Below, piece after piece: positions 54,524 through 60,857 of a DNA stretch of 64,000 bases. The first letter of the stretch is position 1. Each line of letters begins with the position of its first letter. Source of the stretch: an uncultured Lachnospiraceae bacterium (lineage in GTDB: Bacteria; Bacillota; Clostridia; Lachnospirales; Lachnospiraceae); NCBI GenBank assembly GCA_902789175.1, contig CADANF010000005.1, positions 55,226-119,225 of the forward strand, read 5' to 3'. The notes beneath the pieces were generated by a model, which saw only the letters and a list, made by a program, of their open reading frames with translations, was not told where the DNA came from and ran no database searches. The translations under genes and the position numbers were made by a program.

Positions 54524-55381
54524 TTGACTAAAAAACAAAAAATAAGAACACTTGTAATCCTTGGAGTTCTGCTTGTCCTAATCATCATTGGAATAATTCT
54601 TACTAATGGTCAATATGAGAAGCACGAAACCATTAAAGAGGTTATGAGGGATGCTGTTCTTCATGAGGATGGTAAGATCAGATTCTTTGGTCTTAGTGCT
54701 AATCCATCGGTAGTATCGGGCTTTATAGTAACATGTATCATACTGTTATTTGCTTTGATAGTTAGACTTTTCTTTCTTCCAAGATTTAAAGAGGTACCTG
54801 GAAAATTTCAGCTGCTTATAGAAACTTGGGTAGAGACATTCAGAAATCTTGCTGAGGGTAATAGCAAACATATCAATAAATTTCTTGGAGCTTATGTATT
54901 TGCGGCAGGAAGTTATATATTTGTTGGAACTTGTTTTGAACTTTTTGGAATTCAGTTTGAAACTATCAAAGGAAATTCAATAGCTTTACCAGCACCTTTA
55001 GCAGATATTAATGGAGCCATTTCCATTGGCGTACTTTCATATCTCGTGATTCTTTCAGGAGGTATAGCCGGAAATAAACTTAAGGGCGTTGGACTTACAT
55101 TAAAGGAATTTTCACTTCCTATTTCTATGAGTTTCAGATTATTTGGTGCACTTCTTTCAGGAGCCTTAGTAACTGAACTTGTTTATTTCTATATTAATCT
55201 TAGTTTTGGACTGCCGGTTGTGGTAGGACTTCTTTTCACTGCTTTACATGCATTGATTCAGGCATATGTATTATGCATGTTAACAACAGTTTTCTATGGA
55301 GAAGTTTCAGAACCTGTTGCTAAGAAAGAAAAGAAGAAAAAAGATAAGAAGACAAAAGCAAAAGTAATGGAGGAATTATAA
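54524..55381 (+). CDS. atpB: ATP synthase subunit a
   Basis: A 285-residue Fo stator membrane protein, TTG start at 54524 with AAAGGAG upstream. The conserved helix with the essential Arg is MSFRLFGALLSGALV, followed by HALIQAYVLCMLTTVFYGE. The lysine-rich tail (KKEKKKKDKKTKAKVMEEL) is unusual. No atpI precedes it. With subunit c it forms the ion channel. Confidence 0.94.
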   Translation: MTKKQKIRTLVILGVLLVLIIIGIILTNGQYEKHETIKEVMRDAVLHEDGKIRFFGLSANPSVVSGFIVTCIILLFALIVRLFFLPRFKEVPGKFQLLIETWVETFRNLAEGNSKHINKFLGAYVFAAGSYIFVGTCFELFGIQFETIKGNSIALPAPLADINGAISIGVLSYLVILSGGIAGNKLKGVGLTLKEFSLPISMSFRLFGALLSGALVTELVYFYINLSFGLPVVVGLLFTALHALIQAYVLCMLTTVFYGEVSEPVAKKEKKKKDKKTKAKVMEEL

Positions 55382-55382
55382 A

Positions 55383-55790
55383 ATGAAAAATATTTCTAAG
55401 ATATTTACAATACTTGCAGTTGTTGTGCTGGTAATGGCATTAGTACCATTTAATAAGGTTAAGGCAGCAGGCCCGGTAGATGGAGGATCTTCAATAACTG
55501 TACTTCGTGATGAATCACCAGAAGTTCCAGTTGAAACAGCTAAAGAAACTGAGGCAAAGGATTCAAATGTTGGTTCTAAGGCTGTAGCAGCAGCTATCGC
55601 TGTTGGTCTTGCAGCAGCAGCAGGTGCTATAGGTATGGGTCTTGCCATTGGAAAATCAGCTGAGGGTATCTCACGTCAGCCGGAAGCAGATGGTAAGATA
55701 AGAACAACTCTTATGCTTGGTCTTGTATTCATAGAGACAGCTATTATTTATGCACTTGTTGTCGCAATTCTTATCATATTCGTAATGTAA
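55383..55790 (+). CDS. atpE: ATP synthase subunit c with N-terminal signal-like extension
   Basis: A 135-residue c subunit, against the usual 75-90. Residues 1-29 look like a signal peptide (MKNISKIFTILAVVVLVMALVPFNKVKA) with a likely signal peptidase I site after AKVKAA; 30-64 is an acidic linker (EVPVETAKETEAKD). The c domain is 65-135. The ion-binding carboxylate is E118 in VFIETAIIY. Compared with Na+-type rotors, Tyr123 and Thr119 are kept, but the Gln of helix 1 is Met85, so H+ coupling is more likely. RQPEA (98-102) is the loop that contacts F1. It starts one base after atpB. Confidence 0.9.
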   Translation: MKNISKIFTILAVVVLVMALVPFNKVKAAGPVDGGSSITVLRDESPEVPVETAKETEAKDSNVGSKAVAAAIAVGLAAAAGAIGMGLAIGKSAEGISRQPEADGKIRTTLMLGLVFIETAIIYALVVAILIIFVM

Positions 55791-55826: not shown

Positions 55827-56336
55827 ATGAGTGATTTACCACTTAATATAGATGTTCAGCAAATCCTTTTACATTTCTTTAACTTTGCTATTTTATTTGT
55901 AGGACTTTATCTTATCCTTTATAAACCTGTTAAGGATTTCATGGATAACAGAACTGCAAAATATAATAAAGATAAAGAAGAAGCAGAAAATTTACTTAAT
56001 TCGGCTGCAGAAAAGGAAAAATTATATCAGGAGAAATTAGAAGCTGCTGATAAAGAGATTGCAGATAAGAAGAGAAAAGCTGATGCAGAGATAGATGAAT
56101 TAAGATCTACTGGCGTTGCACAGGCTAAGAAGGAAGCTGAATCAATCGTTGAAAATGCCCGTAAGGAAGCATTTACACTTAAGGAAAATATCATAAAGAG
56201 TGCCGAGAAGGATATTACTGAGATGGTTGAACAGGCATCAAGAAAGATGATGCTTGAAGAGAGCACAGAAGATGTTTATGATGCATTCCTTAAAGAGGCG
56301 AAAAGGAGTGTAAAGGATGGAAAAGCTGGAAAATAA
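55827..56336 (+). CDS. atpF: ATP synthase subunit b
   Basis: A 169-residue b subunit: one N-terminal membrane helix ([29 protein letters not shown]) and a long charged helix (about 40-165) that forms the peripheral stalk. Length and N-terminal RYKPV-type motif are normal. Its stop overlaps the start of the next gene by 20 bases, which is worth noting because the standalone delta gene usually found here is missing. Confidence 0.93.
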
Positions 56337-58092
56337 TGAAAAAGAAATAGCATATCTTTATTCATCCTTATGTCCGGATGAAGCAAGACAGGCTGAGTTC
56401 GTTTCTTTCCTTGAAAATAAATATAATAAAGAATTTGACCTTGAATGGGTTGAAGATAATACTGTTGGAAATGGCTTTAAGTTAGAAGTCTTAGACGAAG
56501 TTTATGACTGGACTCCAGAAGGACGTTATCAGCAGTTAAAAGAAATGTTCGACAGAGTAGCATCCAAGAAGAAAAAAGGCGATGCTAAAGACTTTATAGC
56601 TTCTATAAAGAAGGCTGAAAACGAATGGCATGTTATGCCAATCCCTGAAGAAGAGGGAGTTGTAAAAACTGTAGGTGATGGTGTTGTTAATGCTACAGGA
56701 CTTGATTCAGCAGTTTATGGCGAGGTTGTTATTTTTGAATCAGGTGTTAAGGGAATGGTACAGGATCTTAGACCTGATGATATAGGTATCATCCTTTTTG
56801 GTGACGATAACGATATTACAGAGGGAAGCCGTGTAAGAAGAACAAAGAAGACAGCAGGTATCCCTGTTGGCGAAGGATTCCTTGGAAGAGTAATCGATGC
56901 TCTTGGTAATCCAATCGACGGTTTAGGTGAGATCGAAGCTGATGAGTATAGACCAATAGAGACACCTGCTCCAGGAATAATAGATAGACAGCCTGTAAAT
57001 ACTCCTATGGATACAGGACTTCTTGCCATCGACTCTATGTTCCCTATCGGTAGAGGTCAAAGAGAACTTATCATAGGTGACAGGCAGACTGGAAAAACAG
57101 CTATAGCGTTAGATACTATCCTTAATCAGAAGGGCAAAGATGTAATATGTATTTATGTTGCCATAGGTCAGAAGGCAAGCTCTATTGCGCATTTAGTAGG
57201 AACATTAAGAAAAAATGATGCTATGAAATATACTATAGTTGTTGCAGCTACAGCTAGTGATCCTGCACCACTTCAGTACATTTCTCCATATGCCGGTACT
57301 GCAATGGGAGAATATTTCATGAATAGGGGTAAAGATGTACTTATCGTATATGATGACCTTTCAAAACATGCTATTGCTTATCGTGCCATGAGTCTTCTGC
57401 TTGAGAGATCTCCCGGACGTGAAGCTTATCCTGGAGACGTTTTCTATCTTCATTCAAGACTTCTTGAAAGATCAGCACATCTTTCAGCAGAAAGGGGAGG
57501 CGGGTCACTTACAGCCCTTCCTATTGTTGAGACTCAGGCAGGGGACGTATCAGCCTACATCCCAACAAATATAATTTCTATTACAGATGGACAGATATTC
57601 CTTGAGTCAGATCTTTTCTTCTCAGGTCAGAGACCAGCTGTAAATGTAGGACTTTCAGTATCCCGTGTAGGTGGAGCAGCGCAGACAAAGGCTATGAAGA
57701 AAGCAGCAGGTGGTATTAGACTTGATCTGGCTCAGTATAGAGAAATGGAAGTATTTACTCAGTTCTCCAGTGATCTGGATGAAGCAACAAAGAAACAGCT
57801 GAATTATGGTCAGGGACTTATGAGACTCTTAAGACAGCAGCAGAGTAATCCATTAAGTCTTCATCAGCAGGTTATAATCCTCATATCTGCAACAGCTAAA
57901 GTTATGGTGGATATTCCTGTGGAAAAGGTCCTTTTATTCAGGGAATATCTTTTAAATGCATTTGAAGCAGATGAGAAGAGCCTTTGCGACAGAATAGATG
58001 AGTCAGGGGTATTCTCAGATGATGATAAAGAATACATTATAGAAAAAGCAAAAGAGATCAGAGATAGATATAAACAGGAAAAGAATCTTTAA
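56317..58092 (+). CDS. atpA: ATP synthase subunit alpha with fused delta C-terminal-like domain
   Basis: 591 residues, about 90 more than a normal alpha. Residues 1-80 ([61 protein letters not shown]) align by eye with the C-terminal domain of subunit delta (v-D-p-x-l-x-G-G-f-x-v-x-v-g-d-x-v-x-D-x-S-v-x-x-r-L). Residues about 90-591 are a full alpha: [15 protein letters not shown], Walker [10 protein letters not shown] at 254-262, [13 protein letters not shown], and [15 protein letters not shown]. No separate atpH lies in the operon. It overlaps atpF by 20 bases and has its own ribosome site (AAAAGGAG). Confidence 0.92.
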
Positions 58093-58106: not shown

Positions 58107-60439
<2,333 letters not shown>

Positions 60440-60446
60440 TCTTAAT

Positions 60447-60857
60447 TTGAAGACATTTAAGACAAGAATATACGAGGCAGACAGTACTTTCTTTGAAGGC
60501 GAATTAGAGTCCCTTATAATCCCTACCAGCGGAGGAGAATATGGTGTTCTTGCAAGCCACAGAAATGCAGTTTTTGCTATCGTACCGGGAATAATAAAAT
60601 ACAGACCTAAAGATAGCGAGATGCTCTTTGCTGCTGTTTCAGAAGGTATGATGCGTATTGAGAATGGAGATGTCCTTATCTTAGTAAATACAGCTGAACA
60701 TCCTGATGAAATAGATGAAATGAGGGCAAGAGAAAGAGCTGAAGAAGCTAAAGAAATTATGCTTCAAAAGAAGAGTATTGAGGAATACTATCAGGCAGAG
60801 GCAACACTTCGCCGTGCCATGATAAGACTTAGAGTTAAGAATCATGATATTAAGTAA
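60447..60857 (+). CDS. atpC: ATP synthase subunit epsilon
   Basis: A 136-residue epsilon subunit, TTG start at 60447. Beta-sandwich domain (FEGELESLIIPTSGGEYGVLASHRNAVFAIVPG) and C-terminal helical domain (RARERAEEAKEIMLQ...ATLRRAMIRLRV) that can inhibit ATP hydrolysis. Last gene of the operon, closed by a strong hairpin. Confidence 0.93.
   Translation: MKTFKTRIYEADSTFFEGELESLIIPTSGGEYGVLASHRNAVFAIVPGIIKYRPKDSEMLFAAVSEGMMRIENGDVLILVNTAEHPDEIDEMRARERAEEAKEIMLQKKSIEEYYQAEATLRRAMIRLRVKNHDIK

Follow-up and report, generated by a model that had tools for sequence, protein, structure and literature searches.

A natural delta C-terminal domain–alpha fusion in the F-type ATP synthase of Lachnospiraceae, a likely multi-stalk enzyme

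By the stated rule, an F-type ATP synthase has a single a subunit and a single peripheral stalk; engineering has broken this rule in Bacillus PS3, where the N-terminal domain (NTD) of delta was removed and its C-terminal domain (CTD) fused to alpha (Ueno 2025; PMC12229609). In the PS3 enzyme the delta NTD fills the concavity at the centre, along the pseudo-threefold axis, where it is thought to cap the number of stalks at one; two alpha N-termini touch this domain and one touches the C-terminal region of delta (PMC12229609). The engineered enzyme (deltaDeltaN-alpha), also stripped of the epsilon C-terminal domain, had a and b contents of 2.2 and 1.8 times, about two stalks on average, and by cryo-EM carried as many as three stalks, with three a subunits (PMC12229609). 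Its H+/ATP ratio was 5.8 and its equilibrium proton-motive force (pmf) was halved (68 mV in place of 133 mV under one set of conditions), the ions moved per turn being given as the number of c times the number of a subunits (PMC12229609). The Discussion of the same paper remarks on a natural delta–alpha fusion without NTD in Acidaminococcus fermentans, along with UniProt G4Q3K6 and A0A1I2C5T3. This kind of protein is therefore already known, as an engineered enzyme and from that remark on A. fermentans and two other UniProt entries.

Covalent attachment of delta to a neighbouring subunit is also seen in the mycobacterial b-delta protein (PDB 7jg5 chain d), but there the partner is b. N-type ATPases, with the gene order quoted as beta-epsilon-a-c-b-alpha-gamma, have no delta gene (PMC5709465); delta-less clostridial units were noted in the same paper, Fig. 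6B of which may include delta-less fused operons. Our literature search, which left most subscription papers and all preprints outside, found no published delta–alpha fusion from Lachnospiraceae; the spread in this family, a full-length delta–alpha fusion and repeated loss of the NTD were likewise not found in the literature searched. The same search returned no publication on the Chloroflexus synthase of PDB 9itj, which has two delta chains per entry, as a double-stalk enzyme.

Here we analysed a stretch of 64,000 nucleotides (the window) from the genome of an uncultured Lachnospiraceae bacterium (2.75 Mb, 78 contigs, 99.6% complete). Open reading frames and Pfam matches define an F-type operon in the order a-c-b-alpha-gamma-beta-epsilon with no atpH between b and alpha, as an earlier sequence-only reading of this DNA had proposed. 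The canonical operon (a-c-b-delta-alpha-gamma-beta-epsilon) shares the other subunits and their order, but the window has neither a separate delta nor a delta NTD. The features are:

54524..55381, plus strand: atpB, subunit a, 285 aa as listed (PF00119, 59.5 bits)
55383..55790, plus strand: atpE, subunit c, with an N-terminal extension of ~64 aa (PF00137 at aa 69–131, 57.1 bits)
55827..56336, plus strand: atpF, subunit b, 169 aa, overlapping the alpha start (PF00430, 59.1 bits)
56317..58092, plus strand: delta CTD–alpha fusion protein, 591 aa (ORF, Pfam, TIGR00962 and structure matches)
56344..56565, plus strand: delta C-terminal domain within the fusion, aa ~10–83, beta-alpha-beta-beta-beta-alpha (PF00213 at aa 10–76; AlphaFold2, Foldseek)
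56566..56583, plus strand: linker, aa ~84–89 (pLDDT <50 at aa 85–89; no backed start codon at the junction)
56584..56625, plus strand: alpha N-terminal helix, aa ~90–103 (secondary structure; column counts)
56626..58089, plus strand: alpha body with barrel, nucleotide-binding and C-terminal domains (PF02874, PF00006, PF00306)
58107..59042, plus strand: atpG, gamma (PF00231, 295 bits)
59039..60439, plus strand: atpD, beta (ORF; PF00006 match in the genome at C5:114654-115295)
60447..60857, plus strand: atpC, epsilon (PF02823 and PF00401)

The fusion frame starts with an ATG at 56317, overlapping the 3' end of b, and an AAGGAG ends 8 nt upstream. TIGR00962, the alpha model, spans aa 91–584 at 739.7 bits against a cut-off of 484.45 and, because the match begins at aa 91, about 90 residues are extra at the N-terminus, as the sequence-only reading had stated. 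With this score, and with PF02874, PF00006 and PF00306 all present, the protein has the attributes of an F-type alpha. The delta CTD is thus covalently part of alpha in one reading frame: a single ORF of 591 aa holds the PF00213 match and a complete alpha, as had been claimed for the b-binding part of delta. A mycobacterial type of b-delta fusion was ruled out, since the window b has 169 aa and only PF00430 reaches its cut-off. Membership of the N-ATPases was also rejected, as the gene order differs and the protein scores 616.8 against a cut-off of 750.5 for TIGR03324 ('alternate F1F0 ATPase'), a model that we take to stand for N-ATPases.

Assignment of the N-terminal segment to delta relies on profiles and on predicted structure. 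PF00213 (OSCP/delta) matches aa 10–76 at profile positions 103–170 of 172, which correspond to the CTD. The match scores 21.3 bits (E 3e-4) on the isolated 100-aa N-terminal fragment, about 1 bit below the curated cut-off of 22.3, and 16.8 bits (E 0.008) on the whole 591-aa protein. When the segments of the window and 55 relatives were scanned singly, 52 of the 56 matched PF00213 at E ≤ 1e-3 (best E 1.7e-11), and no other Pfam family was listed for them at that threshold. Profile A4, built from 8 separate and 12 fused deltas and less independent than Pfam because of these fused rows, matches the window segment at E 1.5e-11 over positions 92–185 of 192 in the scan of its own genome. It also matches both delta domains of 7jg5 chain d (profile 20–161 at residues 292–438 of 445; one chain per entry). 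The top profile match among PDB sequences is 9jc1, the engineered PS3 enzyme, which alone among the matches listed covers domain, linker and alpha together; an alignment profile was needed, phmmer with the single 100-aa segment giving only chance-level matches to PDB sequences.

AlphaFold2 predicts a beta-alpha-beta-beta-beta-alpha fold for the segment, with a mean pLDDT of 64 and ~82 over aa 11–50. In a Foldseek search of the PDB with this model, ranks 1–46 are all delta, OSCP, b-delta or 9jc1 fusion chains (best E 2.5e-4), as identified from chain names and the A4 search of PDB sequences, and the first non-ATP-synthase protein appears at rank 47. The structural check on delta/OSCP suggested by the sequence-only reading thus gave a clear match for aa ~10–83, close to the residues of about 18–80 that it had assigned to the delta CTD. 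The models have moderate confidence around the junction (pLDDT of about 52–55 over linker and helix), so that the geometry with which the fused domain would dock the b stalk is tentative.

For the full-length alpha model, the top three Foldseek matches are chains I, K and J of 9jc1 (570 columns, 48–50% identity), with TM-scores by query length of 0.74–0.77 versus 0.66–0.71 for the other chains listed; aa 9–572 of the window protein align with 9jc1 residues 5–566. Like the engineered protein, it consists of the delta CTD (residues 105–178 in PS3 delta), a short linker and alpha, with no NTD and no separate delta. The two differ in that the epsilon C-terminal helix domain, removed in engineered PS3, is present in the window, and in that the stalk number was measured for PS3, whereas the window fusion is natural and known here from sequence alone. 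Acidaminococcus fermentans, compared by description only, resembles the window in its delta–alpha fusion without NTD.

No second delta was detected in the genome. PF00213 gave no match at E ≤ 0.001, A4 gave nothing at E ≤ 10 besides the fused CTD of the window, and neither profile scan found the six-helix NTD; a delta hidden elsewhere, which would have counted against the original claim, was therefore rejected as far as these profiles reach. Apart from alpha and beta of the window, PF00006 matches three frames in the genome: two neighbours on contig C9, 591 and 467 aa long, which appear to be laid out like the A and B subunits of a V/A-type enzyme, and one of 631 aa on contig C28, perhaps Rho.

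The surroundings of related loci were equally devoid of the NTD. HMMs for delta NTD, delta CTD and alpha were run on 229 loci, and 227 alpha ORFs were classed into three gene ARRANGEMENTS: 172 CTD–alpha fusions, 31 full delta–alpha fusions (from 28 genomes, a single frame of 669–758 aa encoding NTD, CTD and alpha) and 24 with separate genes, the last comprising 21 and a further 3 labelled NONE that have a delta ORF apart from alpha. NTD profiles found nothing upstream of the CTD in any of the 172 CTD-type loci, within up to 700 bases (less where a locus is cut), and the same scan, as a positive control, detected the domain in 29 of the 31 full fusions. These 172 loci include repeats of the same genome and represent 129 distinct junctions. 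The median distance from the b stop to the delta domain is 9 nt in CTD-type loci (n=165) versus 278 nt in full fusions (n=30). A shift of the NTD onto b or a neighbouring frame was rejected on the same upstream scan; by these profiles the NTD is deleted in CTD-type loci, not relocated nearby, in agreement with the initial view that it had been discarded. With the NTD gone and no other delta detected, the fused domain is the sole recognisable candidate dock for the b2 stalk. The alpha N-terminal helix nevertheless keeps its pattern in CTD-only proteins, with spaced hydrophobics and K/R followed by W or F in 120 of 127, and this conservation without an NTD fits a role of the helix against the CTD.

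The fusion is widespread in the family. The N-terminal extension occurs in 35 of 36 same-genus genomes (the exception being G036), at 36–96% identity and with no internal stops. Among 396 family genomes, 171 match the N-terminal profile A1, separate deltas included, and the survey that the sequence-only reading had called for yields at least 53 CTD–alpha fusions (three of them short-framed: G185, G359 and G134) and at least 26 full fusions, both minima because they come from reading the listed rows. The 26 longer frames are stop-free and 669–758 aa long, and HMMs confirmed 25 of them as full fusions (G416 being the remaining one). PF00213 gives a single weak match in each of 15 CTD–alpha carriers among the 396 genomes, the result that would follow from their having no delta but the fused CTD. 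Two same-genus genomes, G023 and G009, give two matches each, and in G023 the second operon is complete and standard, with a full delta of 188 aa (L035).

Among loci from named records (the best 80 of 144), 79 carry the CTD–alpha fusion, and the remaining one (L100) ends before alpha. Named carriers include Eubacterium ruminantium FB3002 (L149) and the Lachnospiraceae bacteria AC2029 (L101), XPB1003, NE2001, LC2019, AC2031 and AB2028; the metagenome-assembled genome Eubacterium sp. RGIG507 (L075) is identical to the window across the 116-residue query. A search of a plasmid collection gave no match. When 398 genomes sampled across the phylum were scanned, A1 matched 63 at E ≤ 1e-6, and seven of these, by reading of the rows and with the window's own genome included, have stop-free fused frames; in the others delta is separate or is divided from alpha by stops. 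One of the seven, G877, places inside the clade of the window's kind. G884 and G711, from other families, group with alphas of the separate-gene type (these 2 and 32 separate ones, SH-aLRT 100 in a quick tree), outside the Lachnospiraceae fused clade; the architecture therefore has at least one further origin in the phylum.

The arrangements and the trees together suggest a path. Of the 24 loci with separate genes, 13 have delta and alpha in frame with each other and parted by exactly one stop codon, a share biased by the partial selection of this set for A1 matches across an in-frame stop; loss of one stop codon would therefore yield a full fusion. The careful alpha tree (LG+G4 without mixtures) holds 83 of 135 rows, thinned from 225 of the 227 alpha ORFs; after a quick tree, 11 rows that were long, distant or in odd positions had been dropped, together with 41 CTD-only rows from the large clade to which the window belongs. 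On it the CTD-only label changes 13 times (bootstrap 12–14), well-supported, starred branches forcing at least 6 of these changes; the full-fusion label also changes 13 times (at least 6 forced) and the separate label twice, counts that give no direction and come from a tree whose bootstrap had not settled. Mixed groupings recur: the full fusion L191 groups with the CTD-only L205 (100/98), and the CTD-only L074 with the full fusions L060, L072 and L195 (99/99). A single origin of CTD-only proteins was rejected by the AU test (p 9.8e-8), as was a single clade of full fusions (p 5e-5), whereas one clade of all fused proteins was not (p 0.177). The simplest fit to these trees would be one fusion followed by repeated NTD loss. 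We accordingly infer, from gene structures and trees, that separate in-frame delta and alpha genes probably lost the stop codon between them to give a full delta–alpha fusion, from which the NTD would have been deleted repeatedly to leave CTD-only fusions, a similar design appearing again elsewhere in the phylum.

What such a protein implies for stalk number was raised at the outset as a stoichiometry question; it is a real one, to which the engineered enzyme gives an answer in principle, namely up to three stalks. Because each of the three alphas carries the CTD, an F1 would offer three stalk-docking sites, and absence of the NTD would remove the element on the pseudo-threefold axis that limits stalks to one; given these docks and the missing limiter, we propose that two to three b2-a units are assembled at least part of the time. 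With ions per ATP equal to the c number times the a number divided by 3, a second a subunit would double the ion/ATP ratio and a third would triple it, and the higher ratio would permit ATP synthesis at low pmf. We regard it as slightly better than an even bet that the fused CTD docks b2, that the enzyme is multi-stalk part of the time with a raised ion/ATP ratio, and that fusion preceded repeated NTD loss; on this analysis a natural multi-stalk enzyme is likely. The main rival is a single stalk, in which one fused CTD binds b2 and two stay idle, the limit being set by the c-ring, by packing in the membrane or by how much a and b is available, and the fusion merely securing delta:alpha supply and tight attachment. 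In the full fusions each alpha still bears an NTD, and these proteins have clearly survived, so that fusion alone need not require symmetry or several stalks; in their 28 genomes they presumably run on one stalk, and idle copies would thus be tolerated. The operon has one a and one b gene, as a single stalk would suggest, although this is compatible with one stalk or several, and the triple-stalk class of the engineered enzyme was rare on the grids, which its authors ascribe to detachment (PMC12229609). Yet that enzyme, which shares the architecture, averaged about two stalks (PMC12229609), and the very domain thought to limit stalks was apparently lost repeatedly after fusion; we therefore hold a single stalk to be a serious possibility but the less probable outcome.

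Other explanations alter the composition of the enzyme rather than its docking. Internal initiation or proteolysis could produce a mixture, for example of one fused and two unfused alphas, restoring the stoichiometry of a single delta, and in-frame ATG, GTG or TTG codons with at least 4 matching Shine-Dalgarno (SD) bases do occur at 32 of the 129 distinct CTD-type junctions and at 6 of 28 full ones. In separate alphas, however, the best start candidate per locus is backed by 5 or more SD bases in 21 of 24 loci and always lies 21 to 23 codons before the barrel, whereas starts so backed are found at only 13/129 CTD-type and 2/28 full junctions, at scattered positions, and no in-frame start codon whatsoever exists at 39/129 and 14/28, respectively. 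Because junction starts are scattered or missing, unfused alpha is probably not a conserved product, although proteolysis could still yield some; the window junction itself has no SD-backed internal start, an internal alpha start near residue 90 is unsupported across the relatives, and we consider a mixture improbable. An unrecognised, fast-evolving protein encoded elsewhere might instead replace the delta NTD as the F1 cap: the alpha N-helix is conserved without any NTD and so should have some partner, and profile searches can overlook very divergent proteins. The genome holds nothing else at E ≤ 10, however, the upstream regions are empty in all 172 loci, and the helix can bind the CTD region, as one of the three PS3 alphas does (PMC12229609), which makes such a substitute very unlikely. 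A sequencing or assembly artefact, or a pseudogene, might be suspected in a window from a 78-contig draft, and in one relative, L041, the alpha frame ends prematurely (519 aa); conservation of the stop-free extension across the genus refutes this in practice, and the fusion also occurs in isolates assembled into very long contigs, AC2029 among them, so that we give this explanation next to no weight.

The c subunits offer a further contrast between operons. The ion-site motif of the window atpE is M...FIETAIIY, and in CTD-type loci the corresponding position is M in 126/148 and I in 18/148, mostly with a FIETAIIY-like motif; full-fusion c subunits have I and LAEATAIY in 16/16, and standard-operon c subunits (L031–L035) have Q in 5/5 with VAETTGLY. 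By general sodium-site rules, the standard-operon enzyme looks Na+-type and the fused enzyme H+-type, and G023 may run one synthase of each type. The genome of the window holds one strong NqrB/RnfD/RnfE-family gene. In rumen butyrivibrios, Ech and Rnf have been proposed to drive an F-type synthase, and all 62 of 62 butyrivibrio genomes were predicted to encode every synthase subunit including delta (ATPF1D) (PMC4478896), a prediction that may reflect either a standard operon or the way fused genes were annotated.

Because apparent intermediates coexist, namely in-frame neighbours, full fusions and CTD-only fusions, the evolutionary route can be studied directly, and because a named isolate, E. 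ruminantium FB3002, carries the CTD–alpha fusion, the proposal can be put to the test. The rule-breaking change made by engineers has been made by nature too, apparently many times. The ion/ATP ratio is ordinarily set by the c-ring, and extra a subunits, if present, would alter that. If several stalks are indeed assembled, ATP yields based on ordinary ratios would need revision, and ATP synthesis in fermenting gut bacteria could proceed at a pmf too low for ordinary synthases.

Almost every same-genus genome carries a match to the fused extension, the ~90 extra N-terminal residues of the window alpha; G036 (97% complete) is the only one of the 36 searched in which none was found. Two delta-family matches each were recovered from the same-genus genomes G023 and G009, and G023 combines a fused-type operon with a complete standard operon (L035), which has its own delta and a c subunit bearing the motif Q...VAETTGLY. 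By motif comparison, the ion site of the window c subunit is unlike that of the standard Lachnospiraceae operon c, which we take to be Na+-type. The window c and a second rotary ATPase of the window's own genome, probably V/A-type, are located as follows.

55383-55790, subunit c, with a ~64-residue N-terminal extension containing a signal-like hydrophobic stretch
Contig C9, 36363-38545, second rotary ATPase, frames of 591 and 467 aa

Fusions of the delta C-terminal domain (CTD) to alpha also occur in other families of the phylum (L265 in genome G884 and L266 in G711). Their alphas cluster with ordinary alphas in a quick tree, and these fusions appear to be of separate origin from those of Lachnospiraceae. 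At L222 (genome G114), HMM classing resolved a 787-aa frame into ~200 upstream residues, the delta CTD and alpha; the upstream residues may be mere open frame and not protein.

HMM classing of loci further identified full-length fusions, in which the delta N-terminal domain (NTD), CTD and alpha share one frame of 669–758 aa.

Full fusions: L059-L062, L065, L067, L071-L073, L155, L165, L166, L190-L202, L224-L226

Alignment of 12 of these fusions placed the NTD shortening at the same positions as in the separate delta of L175. One delta NTD is normal in the ATP synthase crown; by gene structure, a complete delta on every alpha implies three NTDs per enzyme in the full fusions. For the Chloroflexus aurantiacus ATP synthase (PDB 9itj-9itu), no publication was found in a literature search covering few subscription papers and no preprints. 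Its six entries hold 12 delta chains, a mean of two per entry, each delta being only 157 aa, and the complex is possibly a natural two-stalk enzyme.
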